Shown: piece by piece, positions 3,788-27,797 of the stretch | How the letters are laid out: each line of letters begins with the position of its first letter | How positions within the stretch are numbered: position 1 is the first letter of the stretch | DNA from: Alphaproteobacteria bacterium | GTDB lineage: Bacteria; Pseudomonadota; Alphaproteobacteria; Rickettsiales; JABCZZ01 | Direction: 5' to 3' | Assembly: GCA_013286285.1 (NCBI GenBank) | Contig: JABDGA010000012.1 | Coordinates: 1-34,631, forward strand | Length of the DNA stretch: 34,631 nt | Program-made: the position numbers and the translations under genes | The notes under the pieces: generated by a model | Databases searched by the model: none | Seen by the model: the letters and a program-made list of their open reading frames with translations, nothing else | What the model was told of the DNA's origin: nothing

Positions 3788-4482
3788 TGAATACGCAGCC
3801 TTCCACGGTCATACCTTCATTCGGGCGCAGGCGCGGACGAAAATTGCGCCAGAGCCGTAGTGTGCTGATGGAAACGCTCTTGCCTGAACTTCTGATTACA
3901 TTGCCTTCTGCCGCTTGCAACCTGCAACTTACAACACTGCTCCCCAATCCCCGTCTTCCCTTATGGTTTGAAATTGGCTTCGGCAACGGCGAACATCTGG
4001 TCGGGCAGGCGATGCGCAATCCGGGTGTCAATTTCATCGGTGTCGAACCCTATATTAACGGTATGGCCAGTCTGCTTGCGGCCATTGACCGGCATGCACT
4101 CACCCATATCCGGATCTTTGACGGTGATGCGCGTGCGCTACTGGAAGCCCTGCCGGATGCGTCGATTGACCGGTTGTTCGTCCTGTTTCCCGATCCGTGG
4201 CCAAAAGCGCGGCATCATAAGAAGCGCCTCGTTTCGGTTAACTCATTGGCGCTGTTCCACCGCAAGCTTAAAGAGGGCGGCAGGCTGCGCATTGCCACCG
4301 ATCATGCGGATTATTGCACTTCCATACTTGAAAACCTGTGTATCTGCGGTAAGTTTACCTGGTCTGCGAGGGTACAGGCCGATTGGAGTGATCCGCCAGC
4401 GGATTGGGTAAGGACGCGCTACCAGGAAAAAGCGGAAGCGGAGGGCAGGAAGGCAACCTTTCTCGAATGGGTTAAGGCGTGA
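3787..4482 (+). CDS. trmB: tRNA (guanine-N7-)-methyltransferase TrmB
   Basis: RRGRKLRQSRS, WFEIGFGNGEHL, GVEPYINGMASLL, LFPDPWPKARHHKKRLV, RIATDHADY motifs. Confidence 0.94.
   Translation: MNTQPSTVIPSFGRRRGRKLRQSRSVLMETLLPELLITLPSAACNLQLTTLLPNPRLPLWFEIGFGNGEHLVGQAMRNPGVNFIGVEPYINGMASLLAAIDRHALTHIRIFDGDARALLEALPDASIDRLFVLFPDPWPKARHHKKRLVSVNSLALFHRKLKEGGRLRIATDHADYCTSILENLCICGKFTWSARVQADWSDPPADWVRTRYQEKAEAEGRKATFLEWVKA
3908..3935 (-). repeat. Degenerate four-unit heptanucleotide array inside trmB
   Basis: Reverse complement GTTGTAA/GTTGCAG/GTTGCAA/GCGGCAG, 7-nt period, related to the GTTGCCR arrays in lnt and hscA. Confidence 0.6.
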
Positions 4483-4484
4483 AC

Positions 4485-5933
4485 ATGAACTCCTTATATT
4501 TCTTCAGGGATTATACCGGCTGGCGGCGCTGGCTGCTGGCGGCACTGTTTGGCGTCATGGCTACGCTTGCCCTGCCGCCGTTATATATATTGCCGCTGCT
4601 GATTCCGGCGTTTTCCGGGTTATTCCTCCTGTTATGGAATGCAAAAACCTTGCGGCAGGCATTTGGTGATGGCTGGTGGTGGGGGCTTGGCCATTTCACC
4701 ACGGGGCTCTACTGGATGTGCATCTCGCTCTATGTCGAGCCGGAAAAATTCGCCTGGATGACGCCGTTCGCGTTATTTGGCATTCCTTCGGTGGCGGCGG
4801 TGTATACAGGATTAGTTGCCAGTTGCCAATTGTCACTTGCCAGAAATTATATGCAACCGGCAACCGGCAACCGGCAACTCCTGCTCTTCGCCACTCTCTG
4901 GATCATCGCCGAATACCTGCGCGCGCATCTGCTGACCGGATTTCCGTGGAATCTGATAGGGTATGTCTGGACGGTATCGGATGCAACGCTGCAGGCGGTA
5001 TGGCTTACCGGCATTTACGGTTTAAGCGGGATAACCGTGTTTGTGGCGACGGCTCCCGCATTATTTGTTCTCAAAGCAAAGCCCATCCTGTCCAATGTGC
5101 TGGCGGCAATGTGCATATTGCTGATGATTGTGTATGGCTGGCAGCGGTTGGAGCATAACCCTACTGCGTACAGCGATGTCAAAATTCGTATCGTGCAGGC
5201 CAATATCCCGCAGGCGGAAAAAATGACTCCGCAGGCGCAATACAGTATCTTGAAGAAATACCTGGATTTAACCCAGTCATCGGGGCTTGACGGTATTAAC
5301 GTAACCATCTGGCCGGAGGCGGCGGTGCCGTATTATATGGCACCGGGATCCATCCTGCTGCGTGATATGGGCAGCATATTGCCGAAAAATGCGCTGTTGG
5401 TGACTGGCGGCCTGCGGGGAAATAATAATATGAAAGACTGGCAGTCATGGAACAGCCTGTTTGTGATTAATCCGGCGGGGCAGGCGCTGGCGCAGTACGA
5501 TAAGCACCACCTGGTGCCGTTCGGGGAATTCATCCCGTTTCGCCATATACTTCCGGTGGAGAATATTTCCGGGGGGCATGGCGATTTTTCCTACGGGAAA
5601 GGCGCAACGACGATTGCAGTTACCTCGCTTCCTCCGTTCAGCCCGCTTATCTGCTATGAAGCGATATTTCCCGATGAAGCGGTGGATAACACGCATCAGG
5701 CGAAATGGTTGCTGAATGTCACGAACGATGCCTGGTTTGGCGTCAGTTCCGGGCCATACCAGCATTTGCAGATGGCGCGCACGCGGGCGGTGGAAAACGG
5801 CCTGCCGCTCATCCGGGCGGCCAATACCGGCATCTCGGCAGTGATTGATCCTTTCGGGCGGATACTTGCCAGCCTGCCGCTGGAGCAGGAAGGAATACTG
5901 GATGCCATCCTGCCGTTGCCTGTGGTTAAATAG
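4485..5933 (+). CDS. lnt: apolipoprotein N-acyltransferase Lnt
   Basis: Multi-TM N-terminus, LLTGFPWNLIGYVW, WPEAAVPYY, KHHLVPFGEFIPFR, CYEAIFPDE, LLNVTNDAWFG, RAVENGLPLIRAANTGISAVIDPFGR. ATG at 4485 or GTG at 4479. Confidence 0.95.
   Translation: MNSLYFFRDYTGWRRWLLAALFGVMATLALPPLYILPLLIPAFSGLFLLLWNAKTLRQAFGDGWWWGLGHFTTGLYWMCISLYVEPEKFAWMTPFALFGIPSVAAVYTGLVASCQLSLARNYMQPATGNRQLLLFATLWIIAEYLRAHLLTGFPWNLIGYVWTVSDATLQAVWLTGIYGLSGITVFVATAPALFVLKAKPILSNVLAAMCILLMIVYGWQRLEHNPTAYSDVKIRIVQANIPQAEKMTPQAQYSILKKYLDLTQSSGLDGINVTIWPEAAVPYYMAPGSILLRDMGSILPKNALLVTGGLRGNNNMKDWQSWNSLFVINPAGQALAQYDKHHLVPFGEFIPFRHILPVENISGGHGDFSYGKGATTIAVTSLPPFSPLICYEAIFPDEAVDNTHQAKWLLNVTNDAWFGVSSGPYQHLQMARTRAVENGLPLIRAANTGISAVIDPFGRILASLPLEQEGILDAILPLPVVK
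4815..4878. repeat. Heptad palindrome inside lnt: four units, 8-nt loop, four complementary units
   Basis: GTTGCCA/GTTGCCA/ATTGTCA/CTTGCCA (4815-4842), GAAATTAT (4843-4850), ATGCAAC/CGGCAAC/CGGCAAC/CGGCAAC (4851-4878). Confidence 0.93.
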
Positions 5934-6052: not shown

Positions 6053-6724
6053 TCACTCGCGGTAGAATTGCCGTATAGTTTCAGCTTTCGTGTACATCTC
6101 CTGCGCCTCCGCATCCCTGCCCAGAGCAGCCAAGGCGCGTCCGCAGCAGCAATAAAGCTCAGGATAACCAGGAGATATCTCTATTGTTTGCTTATATTTT
6201 TCTAGCGCGCCATCGTAATCTTTAAGAGCATAAAGGGCATCTCCCCATTTGTGATAAGCTATCGTATCCTGGGGATCTATCTCTATCATTTTTTTATATT
6301 GCTCACTCGCCCCTTCGTAATCTTTCAGATCGCGAAGCGTATCTCCCCAACCCCAATAAGCCCACGTATATTGGGGATCCGCTTCTATGGCTTTCTTATA
6401 CTGCTCAACCGCTCCAGCGTAATCTTTAAGAGCATAAAGAGCATTTCCCCAATGGTTATAAATATGCGGATCCTGGGGATCCATCTCTATTATTTTCTTA
6501 TATTGCTCAATCGCTCCCTGGTAATCTTTGAGAGTATGAAGGGCATGTCCCCATCCATGGTAGGCCGCCATGTCCTGTGGATCCGCTTCTAGCGCTTTTT
6601 GATAGTGGACAATCGCTCCCTGGTAATCTTTACGTTTCAGCAGCGCGTTCCCTTGCGCTACATAAGCGCTCTCTAAAGAGACTTTCTGAGGATTATTGGC
6701 GTCTTCAGGCATAACATCCCGCAA
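6053..6724 (-). CDS. tetratricopeptide repeat protein
   Basis: At least five 34-aa TPR units of the type KDYQGAIEQYKKIIEMDPQDPHIYNHWGNALYAL. Confidence 0.92.
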   Translation of the reverse strand: MRDVMPEDANNPQKVSLESAYVAQGNALLKRKDYQGAIVHYQKALEADPQDMAAYHGWGHALHTLKDYQGAIEQYKKIIEMDPQDPHIYNHWGNALYALKDYAGAVEQYKKAIEADPQYTWAYWGWGDTLRDLKDYEGASEQYKKMIEIDPQDTIAYHKWGDALYALKDYDGALEKYKQTIEISPGYPELYCCCGRALAALGRDAEAQEMYTKAETIRQFYRE

Positions 6725-8625: not shown

Positions 8626-10575
8626 ATGAATTTTTTACAAATCCATGAGCCGGGGGAGACGCCGAACCCGCATAGTGAAGGTGTTGCCGTCGGGATCGAT
8701 CTGGGCACTACCCATTCTGTGATTGCCGTAGCCAGTGAAGGCAAGGTTACTGTGCTGCATGATATCTGCGGCGGGGTGCTGGTCCCGTCGGTCGTGCATT
8801 ACGCTGAAAACGGGCAGGTTACGGTAGGAAAAGCGGCGCGCGCCTTGCTGGCGGGTGATGGCGTACACGTTGTTGCGTCCGTCAAGCGGCTGATGGGACG
8901 CAGCGGAGCCGATGCAAAGGCGCTTGCGTTCCCGTATCCGCTGGCGGGTGACGAGGGAGCGGTGCGCTTTACGGTCGGTAAGCGTGCGCTTACGCCTGCG
9001 GAAGTATCCGCCGATATCCTGCGCCATATGAAAGCGATTGCGGAAACGGCCTTGGGGCAGGAAGTGGCCAGGGCGGTGATTACGGTTCCGGCCTATTTTG
9101 ACGATGCGGCGCGGCAGGCGACCAAGGATGCGGCAAGGCTGGCCGGGCTTGAAGTGCTGCGCCTGATTAACGAGCCTACGGCGGCGGCGCTGGCATATGG
9201 GCTGGATAAGAACGCGGAAGGCATTTATGCCATTTATGATTTAGGGGGCGGCACGTTCGATATTTCCGTACTGAAACTGGAAAAAGGCGTGTTCCAGGTA
9301 CTTTCTACCGGCGGCGACATTACGATTGGTGGTGATGATTTTGACAAAGAGATAGTTGCCGGTTGCCGGTTGCCGGTTGCCAGTGAAGAAGGGGCGAGGG
9401 GCGAGGAGCAAGGGAAAAGAAAGTTGCGTGAGTACGTGGAGGAGGCACAGCCGACGACCCCGCGCAGCGAGGGGGTAAGCGTAAGCGAAGGGGGCGAACT
9501 ATGCTCGCCCCCTTACAAAAATAATCCGGCCTTGCTTGAGAAAGCGCGGAGGCTGAAGGAGAAATTAAGCGAGGCGGAAGAAGCGGTGTTGGAATGGGAA
9601 GGGAAGGCGATCACGGTCACGCGCACGCAGTTTGAAGCCATGATCGCGCCGTATGTCAGCAAGACGCTTGGCATTTGCCGGCAGGCGCTGGAAGATGCCC
9701 GCCTGACTGCAAACGAGGTCAAAGGTGTCGTACTGGTCGGCGGTTCCACGCGTATTCCTTATGTGCGTGTGGAAATAGAAACGCTGTTCGGGCAGGCGCC
9801 GCTGGCCGATATCAATCCGGATGAAGTGGTGGCGGTAGGTGCGGCGATTCAGGCCGAAGGGCTTACGCAAGGATCGGATAACCTGCTGCTGGATGTGGTG
9901 CCGCTGTCGCTCGGCCTTGAAACCATGGGCGGGATCACGGAAAAGATTATTCATCGCAATACGCCGATTCCGGTGGCGGTGTCGCAGGAATTTACCACCT
10001 ATCAGGACGATCAGACCGGCATGGTCATCCATGTGGTGCAGGGCGAACGCGAGATGGTGGAGCATAACCGGTCGCTGGCGCGTTTTGAGCTGAACGCAAT
10101 TCCGAACCTGCCTGCCGGGATCGCACGTATCAAGGTGACGTTTTCCGTGGATGCGGACGGATTGCTGAGTGTCAGCGCGCGTGAAGAAAATACAGGTGTG
10201 GAGCAGTCCGTTGTGGTCAAGCCTTCCTACGGTATCAGTGAGGAAGAGATAGAGGCGATGCTGCGTGAAAGCATGGAGTTTGCCCGCGCTGATATCACGA
10301 GCCGGTTGCTGCGCGAAGCGGAAATGGAGGCAAAGCGCTCGCTGGAAGAGGTCAAGTCGGCCATAAAGAGCGATGGCGATCTGCTGGATGACAGGGAACG
10401 CGCGCGTATCCATGAACAGATGGGACAGCTTGAACAGGCGCTTGCTACGGGAGATCGCGATAAAATTGATGTGGTCTGCGAGCAATTGCATAACGTTACC
10501 CGACATTTTGCGGAAAAGAGGATGGACAGAGCCATCAATTTAGCCTTAAAAGGGGTGAGTTTAGATAAAATTTAG
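8626..10575 (+). CDS. hscA: Hsp70-type Fe-S assembly chaperone HscA
   Basis: [94 protein letters not shown]; followed by a 2Fe-2S ferredoxin. Carries a non-canonical repeat-derived insert at about aa 244-302. Confidence 0.94.
9355..9382 (+). repeat. Array of four heptanucleotides (GTTGCCG x3, GTTGCCA) inside hscA
   Basis: Exact 7-nt period GTTGCCG/GTTGCCG/GTTGCCG/GTTGCCA, followed at 9391-9411 by GGGGCGA/GGGGCGA/GGAGCAA. Confidence 0.9.
9431..9515 (+). repeat. Dispersed ~85-bp palindromic element, copy A, in frame within hscA
   Basis: GTACGTGGAGGAGGCACAGCCGACGACCCCGC...AGGGGGCGAACTATGCTCGCCCCCT; matches the reverse complements of 27229-27307 and 25181-25260. Confidence 0.88.
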
Positions 10576-14065: not shown

Positions 14066-15757
14066 ATGATCAAAACGTTCCTGTTAAGAACTACCTCCTT
14101 ATTCGTCTTTGCGGGGATGGTTACCTGTGGTTCGGACAATGCGGCTGCATATGATCCAAACCGGCAGCACCATATGTTGCCGAGTATAGAAATCAATCTG
14201 GATGTGTTGAACGATATCGCGGAAAAGCCGGTATATACCCGTCCCGAACCGGCACCGTCGTTTAGGGAAGAAGCCATCCAGCTGGAGGCAAGGCCTGTTG
14301 CGAAGGCACCCGTGGAAGCTGCTCCGGTAAAGCATAAGCAGCTGAAGCATAAAAAGAAGCCTTCCCACCGACAGCGCAAGGTAGATACGGCACCGGAAGT
14401 ACAGGTCGTGGCGGATAAAGAGGCGGAGGCAAATCTCGCGCCTGTCCCGATGCCGCCTAAACCCAAGCCTCCTGTAAAGCTGCAGAAAAAACCCTTGCCT
14501 GTGCAAATGCCTGCGCCGGTGATTGAGTCATTGCCCGCGCCTCCTCCGCCACCGCCGCCGGTTCCTGTTAAACCTGCAGTGAATACAAAACCGCAAAACG
14601 TCAAGAAAACTGCGCCCGCTGCACCAATAGAGGCATTGCCCAGCGATTTCACGGATCTTGCCAAGCCGTCGGTGATGCCTGTGCCTCCGTCACTTCCACC
14701 GCTTCCTCAGGCGAAGCCCACTCCGCTTCCGCCCACACCGACGGTAAAGGCAGTAGAACCATTGCCGCAGATTAACGGGCTGCCGTCTTTACCGGTAACT
14801 CCTCCGGCGCTGCCCCCGCTTCCGGAAACCGGAGCAATGCCGCCAGTGCATAAACCCCCGATACAGGAAATAGAACAACTACCGCAACCGGAACAATTAC
14901 CTCCCGTACCGGCGACGCCGCCCTCACTTCCGGCACTACCTAAAATGGGAACAGTGCCCCCTGCGCATAAATCCCCGGTGCAGGAAATAGAGCAATTGCC
15001 GCAACCTGAGCAAATGCCGTCTTTACCGGGGACACCTCCGGTACCGCCTTCGCTTCCCGCCCTTCCGGAGCTGGGGAACGCATCGCCTGTGCATGCGGCT
15101 CCGGTACAGAAGATCGAGCGGTTGCCGCAGCCGGAGCAGATGCCACCCTTACCCGCGACGCCTCCTTCGCTTCCGCCATTGCCGCCCATGGGCGTACCGT
15201 CCTCCTTGCCGCCTGCGTCTGCGCCGGGATTGCCCTCCCTTCCGCCACTGCCGGAGAGTAAGCCTGTGCCGGTTACGCATAAGCCGTCGGCGGCTGCCCA
15301 GCCATTGCCTGAAATAGGCATGATGCCGTCTGCGATTACGCCCGCGCCTCCCTCTTCGCCGCCGCCGCTGGTCGAAGCAAAGAAAGGCAGCGCGCCTCCG
15401 CCACCTGCCGCGCCTGTGAAAACAGAGAGCAACGCAGCAGGTTCCAAGCCCGATCTGCAGATAGTCTTTAATGAGAATGAAACCGAGATTCCGTTGAACA
15501 TGACGGGTAAGCTTGATGACATTTCCAAATGGCTTGTCAGCCATGCTAATGCACGCGTCAGCGTGGTGGCCTATGCCTCCGGTTCGGAATCGGCCAGCAT
15601 TTATCCCAAGAGGGTTTCGCTCGCGCGTGGAATCGCGGTGCGTAATGCCCTGATTTCCAAGAATAGCCTGGATGTGGAGCGTATCACCGTCAAGGCGCTG
15701 GGCAATAAAAGCGAGTCGGGGCCAAGCAACCGGGTGGATCTGTTCATCATACAATAG
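14066..15757 (+). CDS. Proline-rich protein with C-terminal OmpA-like domain
   Basis: Signal-like N-terminus, long Pro-rich tandem repeat region, C-terminal LQIVFNENETEIPLNMTGKLDDISKWL...ASIYPKRVSLARGIAVRNALISKNSLDVERITVKALGNKSE. Confidence 0.8.
   Translation: MIKTFLLRTTSLFVFAGMVTCGSDNAAAYDPNRQHHMLPSIEINLDVLNDIAEKPVYTRPEPAPSFREEAIQLEARPVAKAPVEAAPVKHKQLKHKKKPSHRQRKVDTAPEVQVVADKEAEANLAPVPMPPKPKPPVKLQKKPLPVQMPAPVIESLPAPPPPPPPVPVKPAVNTKPQNVKKTAPAAPIEALPSDFTDLAKPSVMPVPPSLPPLPQAKPTPLPPTPTVKAVEPLPQINGLPSLPVTPPALPPLPETGAMPPVHKPPIQEIEQLPQPEQLPPVPATPPSLPALPKMGTVPPAHKSPVQEIEQLPQPEQMPSLPGTPPVPPSLPALPELGNASPVHAAPVQKIERLPQPEQMPPLPATPPSLPPLPPMGVPSSLPPASAPGLPSLPPLPESKPVPVTHKPSAAAQPLPEIGMMPSAITPAPPSSPPPLVEAKKGSAPPPPAAPVKTESNAAGSKPDLQIVFNENETEIPLNMTGKLDDISKWLVSHANARVSVVAYASGSESASIYPKRVSLARGIAVRNALISKNSLDVERITVKALGNKSESGPSNRVDLFIIQ
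14860..15200 (+). repeat. Imperfect tandem repeats encoding IEQLPQPEQxPxxPxTPPSLPxLPxxG units
   Basis: Recurring PVQEIEQLPQPEQLPPVPATPPSLPALPKMGTVPPAHKS-like blocks of about 39-42 aa. Confidence 0.8.
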
Positions 15758-15780
15758 GCTTCCTCTGAAACTCTACTGCG
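15754..15780 (+). repeat. Half copy of the TAGACTTCCT palindromic element
   Basis: ATAGGCTTCCTCTGAAACTCTACTGCG compared with ATAGACTTCCTCCGAAACTCTACTGCG at 27650-27676 (two differences); its TAG is the stop codon of the upstream gene. Confidence 0.75.
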
Positions 15781-25180: not shown

Positions 25181-25260
25181 TATTGGGGGGCACGCTGCCC
25201 CCGATTTTACTCCGTAAAATCTCCCCTGCGGGGTCGTCGTATAGCACTCCTCCGCGTACC
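25181..25260 (-). repeat. Dispersed ~80-bp palindromic element, copy C
   Basis: Reverse complement GGGTACGCGGAGGAGTGCTATACGACGACCCCGCAGGGGAGATTTTACGGAGTAAAATCGGGGGCAGCGTGCCCCCCAA; aligns to copies A and B. Confidence 0.92.
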
Positions 25261-25292
25261 CTTGCGCCGTCTTGCTTTTTTATATTCCGCAC

Positions 25293-26360: not shown

Positions 26361-26365
26361 AAGAG

Positions 26366-26451
26366 AGGTGCTAGGTTCTAGGTGCTAGGTTTTAGAAGTA
26401 GGAATGTTTCTATAGAAACACTAGAACCTAACACCTAGAACCTAGCACCTC
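26366..26451. repeat. Heptad palindrome: four 7-nt units, spacer with its own palindrome, four complementary units
   Basis: GGTGCTA/GGTTCTA/GGTGCTA/GGTTTTA (26368-26395), spacer containing TGTTTCTATAGAAACA (26405-26420), TAGAACC/TAACACC/TAGAACC/TAGCACC (26422-26449). Confidence 0.95.
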
Positions 26452-27228: not shown

Positions 27229-27307
27229 ATCGGGGGCGCGCCGCCCCCGATTGCACTCCGTGCAATCTCCCCTGCGTGGTCGTCGGCTGTGCCTCCTCCG
27301 CGTACCC
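27229..27307 (-). repeat. Dispersed ~80-bp palindromic element, copy B
   Basis: Reverse complement GGGTACGCGGAGGAGGCACAGCCGACGACCACGCAGGGGAGATTGCACGGAGTGCAATCGGGGGCGGCGCGCCCCCGATT; two perfect hairpins. Confidence 0.93.
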
Positions 27308-27324
27308 ACGAGACTTGATTTTTT

Positions 27325-27606: not shown

Positions 27607-27650
27607 GCGTGCACTATAGTGCTATTTAATAGTGCATGCCAGAAAAAGAA

Positions 27651-27797
27651 TAGACTTCCTCCGAAACTCTACTGCGCCGGAAAATCTGCTTGAAAATTCC
27701 GTACTCAAAACTCACGTACTTCTCTGTACGCTCAAGTTTTTCCGTGCCGAATTTCCTTCGCGCTTTTCTCGCCGCAGCGAGTTTCACAGGAAGTCTA
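27651..27797. repeat. 147-bp imperfect palindromic element between prfB and fliQ
   Basis: TAGACTTCCTCCGAAACTC (27651-27669) inverted as GAGTTTCACAGGAAGTCTA (27779-27797), two mismatches in 19; imperfect complementarity continues inward. Confidence 0.85.

Follow-up and report, generated by a model that had tools for sequence, protein, structure and literature searches.

We found that hscA, the gene for the Fe-S assembly Hsp70 chaperone, carries within its reading frame an insert in which two arrays of 7-nt repeats precede a copy of a dispersed structured element. In the explanation that we favor, and that we consider very probable, a lineage-specific structured element with heptamers on its 5' side was inserted in hscA, where it would be tolerated and translated in the manner of the palindromic elements RPE and WPE. 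The DNA analyzed here, called the window below, is a stretch of 34,631 nucleotides that constitutes contig 12 of G000, a MAG with a size of 1.45 Mb and a completeness of 53%. Comparisons were made with two congeners (G001 and G002) and with another genome of the same family (G003).

The insertion in hscA

The hscA gene (8626–10575, + strand, 649 aa) was identified by its match to the NCBIfam profile TIGR01991, with 779 bits against a cut-off of 708.55. This match is split in two blocks, and the break between them is the insert. After GGDDFDKEI, we found a first heptamer array, GTTGCCG repeated 3.9 times (9355–9381, + strand), which was delimited by Tandem Repeats Finder and reads VAGCRLPVA in translation. 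It is followed by a second array, AGGGGCGAGGGGCGAGGAGCAAGG, with the units GGGGCGA, GGGGCGA and GGAGCAA (9390–9413, + strand; translated EGARGEEQG), and by a type 1 copy of the dispersed element (9427–9512, + strand), located by profile search. This copy is strongly folded (fold z of -2.4) and terminates in the hairpin GGGGGCGA..TCGCCCCC. The frame stays open across both arrays and the element copy, and the peptide encoded by the type 1 consensus is nearly equal to that of the element copy in hscA, in the same frame. Direct reading, Tandem Repeats Finder and the element profile search all agree with the in-frame stacking of repeats that the original prediction had described.

The insert had been predicted to be peculiar to this hscA, and the alignment of orthologues bears this out: the spacing between GGDDFD and KEKLS is 70 aa in G000, compared with 22 and 24 aa in G001 and G002, whose corresponding loops read GGDDFDRAIAEHYLSGADQVLLARARAAKEKLS and GGDDFDRAIAENIGNQAVPSQILLAKARATKERLS, respectively. 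In the remaining orthologues the spacing goes from 16 to 36 aa (excluding mis-set motif matches of 9 and 40), and the loop at the insertion site is already variable in length among them. These spacings give a net gain of 46–48 residues, a value below the length of the insert because about ten native loop residues have been replaced. An insertion of about 50–60 extra residues had been expected; the insertion itself stands, while its size has to be reduced to this net gain. The refutation set beforehand was a segment common to distant orthologues at the protein level, and we observed it in none of the 24 Rickettsiales HscA orthologues. In addition, the insert gave no match in NCBIfam at E-values up to 10. 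Alignment with DnaK places it in the nucleotide-binding domain, directly after the GGEDFD of DnaK, as anticipated from its position after GGDDFD; this segment is, as we take it from the established Hsp70 structure, subdomain IIB. The AlphaFold model of HscA, built on an alignment of 5 sequences, had low confidence between residues 232 and 331.

Since insertions are common in this lineage, one could argue that hscA is decaying and that the insert is the mark of a pseudogene. However, the open frame is accompanied by a full-length match to the HscA profile, and comparison with the congeners gave a dN of 0.15–0.22 and a dS from 1.5 to saturated, with dN far below dS on both flanks of the insert. 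Judging from these rates, hscA is under strong purifying selection. Its neighbors, a hscB-like and a ferredoxin-like ORF identified by inspection, one on each side, are both intact, and there is no second hscA in the examined sequence of the 53%-complete genome. We therefore regard decay as very unlikely. According to our favored explanation, the hairpin-rich element of approximately 80–90 nt and its 5' heptamer arrays would have entered hscA after the split from the congeners, landing in the length-variable loop of subdomain IIB. HscA would then be made with around 47 extra residues, and the insert would persist because the frame is kept and the loop tolerates them.

Distribution and structure of the element

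Using a profile search, we detected 58 copies of the element in 1.51 Mb of the three congeneric genomes. Among 55 Rickettsiales genomes, it was found in four, all from the same family: G000, G001 and G002, with at least 16 copies each, and G003, with 5. It was absent from the other 51. The element is about 80–90 nt long and presents two forms, type 1 and type 2, with approximately the first 40 nt in common. Neither of its termini, CG[TA]GGGTACGC and GTGCCCCC, looks like an inverted copy of the other.

We aligned 30 copies of type 2 and observed three hairpins with 96.3% of the helix cells paired. Changes on both sides were present in 12 of the 20 base pairs, including all eight pairs of the middle helix, and we counted 66 compensatory cells, compared with 15.7 +/- 4.1 in shuffled alignments. 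This covariation exceeds that of all 500 shuffles and all slides. Hence, the structure, be it of RNA or of single-stranded DNA, is maintained during the spread of the element, whatever it encodes. The original prediction spoke of a 'dispersed palindromic element': dispersed it is, but several hairpins take the place of a single palindrome.

Two further copies, both of type 2 and both on the - strand, lie in the window. No open frame spans the first (25186–25263), and the second (27232–27310) is intergenic, before a fliR-like start assigned by inspection. The latter, together with the copy at 4041 of locus L207 in G001, was considered as a gene-breaking insertion and discarded: both are intergenic and gave only shadow-frame matches. 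We also looked at the strand of the copies. On contig C3 of G002 (1–460000; L140–L159 and L230–L232) all the copies found were on one strand, and agreement with the sign of the GC skew was 20 out of 21 in G002, 3 out of 17 in G001 and 12 out of 20 in G000. A replication-strand bias was rejected, as the sign in G001 is opposite to that in G002 and G000 is mixed, which leaves no consistent rule.

Other repeats are present in the window. A 28-nt direct repeat, 93% identical, at 15753–15780 and 27649–27676 is a possible second dispersed element, and inverted arms of 19 nt occur at 27651–27797. There is also a tandem array of 102-nt repeats at 6177–6632, which probably encodes a helical repeat protein, and a series of 117-nt repeats of biased composition at 14523–15253, inside a large open frame.

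Element copies within genes

The element is found between genes and also in frame within conserved genes. In-frame copies were identified in HscA, LeuS, AmpD, the linker of Der and an AddB-like gene in G000; in ThiL, PheS, an AmpG-like transporter, KdsB and CarA in G001; and three times in PriA in G002. Genes were named by recognition of conserved motifs, HscA being the only one that was profiled. For most of them, orthologues free of the insert were aligned, and such orthologous sites carry the element in one species and lack it in another. On this comparison between species, the element may be mobile.

To avoid choosing open frames, we used a frame-blind test in which the flanks of the element were compared with orthologues in any frame. 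All six copies that two-sided homology identified as intragenic preserve the frame. The type 2 consensus is free of stops in five of the six frames, the type 1 consensus is so in the frame used by hscA, and the heptamer arrays are frame-independent, so in-frame insertion would be easy. The frame and strand in which the element is read differ from gene to gene, with several frames and both strands in use, which makes a selected peptide unlikely. Most probably, some enzyme inserts the element together with its heptamer flank, and selection leaves only frame-keeping insertions in permissive loops. The element itself would be selfish or near-neutral and tolerate translation, as RPE and WPE do.

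These data bear on two other explanations. The byp elements of some yeast mitochondria are bypassed by the ribosome, and the hscA insert, being hairpin-rich and located within an essential domain, could be bypassed in the same way or cut from the RNA, and hence remain untranslated. But removal would not need the frame to be kept or stops to be avoided, and both were observed in the six copies with two-sided homology; besides, there is no match to a self-splicing RNA family and no group II reverse transcriptase. We consider an untranslated insert hardly likely. It could also be argued that the insert is an assembly artefact, given that the MAG is 53% complete and that repeats are prone to misassembly. 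Against this, the genome contains many distinct in-frame junctions, and two more assemblies, of which one is near-complete in 6 contigs, also have the element in frame. An artefact is, in our opinion, extremely unlikely.

Heptamer arrays

The search for tandem arrays in 677 kb of G000 gave 24 arrays of period 7, compared with 0 to 3 at periods 5, 6 and 8–11. In 435 kb of the same genome there were 10 period-7 arrays and 0 or 1 at the other tested periods with the same score threshold, at which 400 kb of a congener gave none. Elsewhere, period-7 arrays amounted to two weak ones in G001 (356 kb) and were absent from the 480 kb examined in G002. The pattern GTTGCCNGTTGCC matched 20 times in G000, while its reversed control did not match at all. 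On the basis of these counts, heptamer arrays are near-specific to G000. Units are homogeneous within each locus and vary between loci (GTTGCCR, GTTGCAR, GTGTCRG, GGTTTCR, GTCACGA, GTAACGA and CTAGGTN). A consensus GNNNC or GTNRCRA can be written for them, but it is post hoc and carries no weight in the argument.

Most of the 24 arrays are in open frames, including those of LeuS, ValS, KdsB, SucB, Lnt, the AddB-like gene and HscA. Since the length of the unit is not divisible by 3, each array encodes one and the same heptapeptide whichever frame of its strand is read. On contig 8 of G000 (L221, 11261–13125), one long open frame resembling AddB, a recombination nuclease, contains four arrays and an element copy. 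Arrays adjoin the element on the 5' side in four cases and on the 3' side in none. Yet they are not simply a flank of the element, since there are arrays without it at the second site of LeuS, in ValS and in SucB.

The main rival to our favored explanation is that heptamers come first and the element after. Heptamers would spread by templated copying, with slippage and inter-strand template switching that yields inverted copies nearby, and the element would land preferentially in or beside them. Several observations are consistent with this. Arrays are clustered, with 11 pairs less than 1 kb apart against 0.79 expected (a value reached in none of 2000 simulations), and inverted pairs occur within LeuS, CarA, KdsB, Lnt and a CysG-like gene; in LeuS, the arms are separated by 92 nt of host sequence. 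At the second site of LeuS and the first of CarA, arrays overwrite native codons and the length is unchanged. Moreover, element and heptamers are found at the same loops in different species: G001 has the element where G000 has heptamers in the CarA, KdsB, CysG-like and LptE-like genes, and in PriA the element of G002 corresponds in position to a heptamer-like peptide in G003. On the other hand, many elements have no detectable heptamers, and the coincidence could come from repeated use of a few permissive loops. We take this alternative seriously without expecting it to be correct.

The window contains two heptamer palindromes of its own. In the lnt-like gene (4815–4878, + strand), a GTTGCCA-type arm, a short spacer and an arm of 3.7 GCAACCG units are in frame, and the orthologues of this gene do not have the palindrome. 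The other, made of CTAGGTN units (26365–26451, with no strand assigned), has 31-nt arms that are 94% complementary; it lies outside any open frame and adjoins a flhB-like start.

A broader proposal would be a process that generates heptamers and places 7-nt arrays in coding sequence, in part by overwriting codons without changing the length and by making inverted copies nearby. Together with the three-hairpin element, with which they share loops of essential proteins across species, the arrays would form a coupled coding-repeat system not described before. We put this forward tentatively and judge it rather unlikely. Filled and empty orthologous sites make the phenomenon of translated palindromes testable, and the coding heptamers raise a distinct question, namely how 7-nt repeats arise and spread without breaking essential genes.

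Comparison with known systems

REP/RAYT elements and MITEs are small dispersed repeats that form hairpins. The element described here is similar to them in size and hairpins and differs in its frequent in-frame intragenic copies. A REP/RAYT origin was discarded, as the cognate Y1 transposase (PF01797), present in 5 control genomes, was found in none of the four genomes of the family (G000–G003). Neither was a reverse transcriptase, and both enzymes were thus rejected as mobilizers of the element. The element has no RNA family match, introns included, and a group II intron was likewise discarded.

To our knowledge, reports of mobile palindromes that are translated come from few organisms, above all Rickettsia and Wolbachia. 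Our results add a new family of elements and another type of repeat to these rare protein-coding palindromes.

Heptameric tandem repeats are known from Xanthomonas and Nostoc, where they are mostly intergenic (PMC4692102), and the P6b stem of the Nostoc trnL intron has 7-nt motifs on complementary arms (PMC4476775). Their 7-nt units are like ours; theirs are mostly intergenic or intronic, whereas here most of the 24 arrays are in open frames, several of them in essential genes. In mitochondria of Nematomorpha, according to the abstract of the report (PMC6649704), inverted repeats occur in coding sequence and their arms encode conserved protein. These coding palindromes resemble ours in lying in conserved coding sequence but are not, as far as that abstract goes, a dispersed shared element. 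A limited literature search did not reveal a repeat element and heptamers combined within coding sequence.

The closest likeness is to RPE (Ogata et al. 2000; see PMC2229807), hairpin-forming repeats of about 100 nt, located between genes and in frame in conserved genes. Our element, of comparable length and from the same bacterial order, is also dispersed and hairpin-forming, with copies both between genes and fused to conserved reading frames, and in these respects it resembles the protein-coding palindromic elements in general. It differs from RPE in its association with heptamer arrays and in being read in several frames and on both strands. Identity with RPE1 was rejected: its profile (TIGR01045) had no match in G000–G003, compared with 48, 21 and 7 matches in three genomes of one other genus of the order; it is these matches that point to Rickettsiales as the order. 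The same paper cites WPE (Ogata et al. 2005), protein-coding palindromic repeats of Wolbachia, a Rickettsiales genus; the likeness, a protein-coding palindromic repeat in Rickettsiales, is one of description only. A second family in another lineage of Rickettsiales, distinct from RPE1 by profile and read in several frames and on both strands within essential genes, points to more than one origin of such elements in the order. On the best reading of these comparisons, the element would work like RPE while being unrelated to RPE1 by profile.
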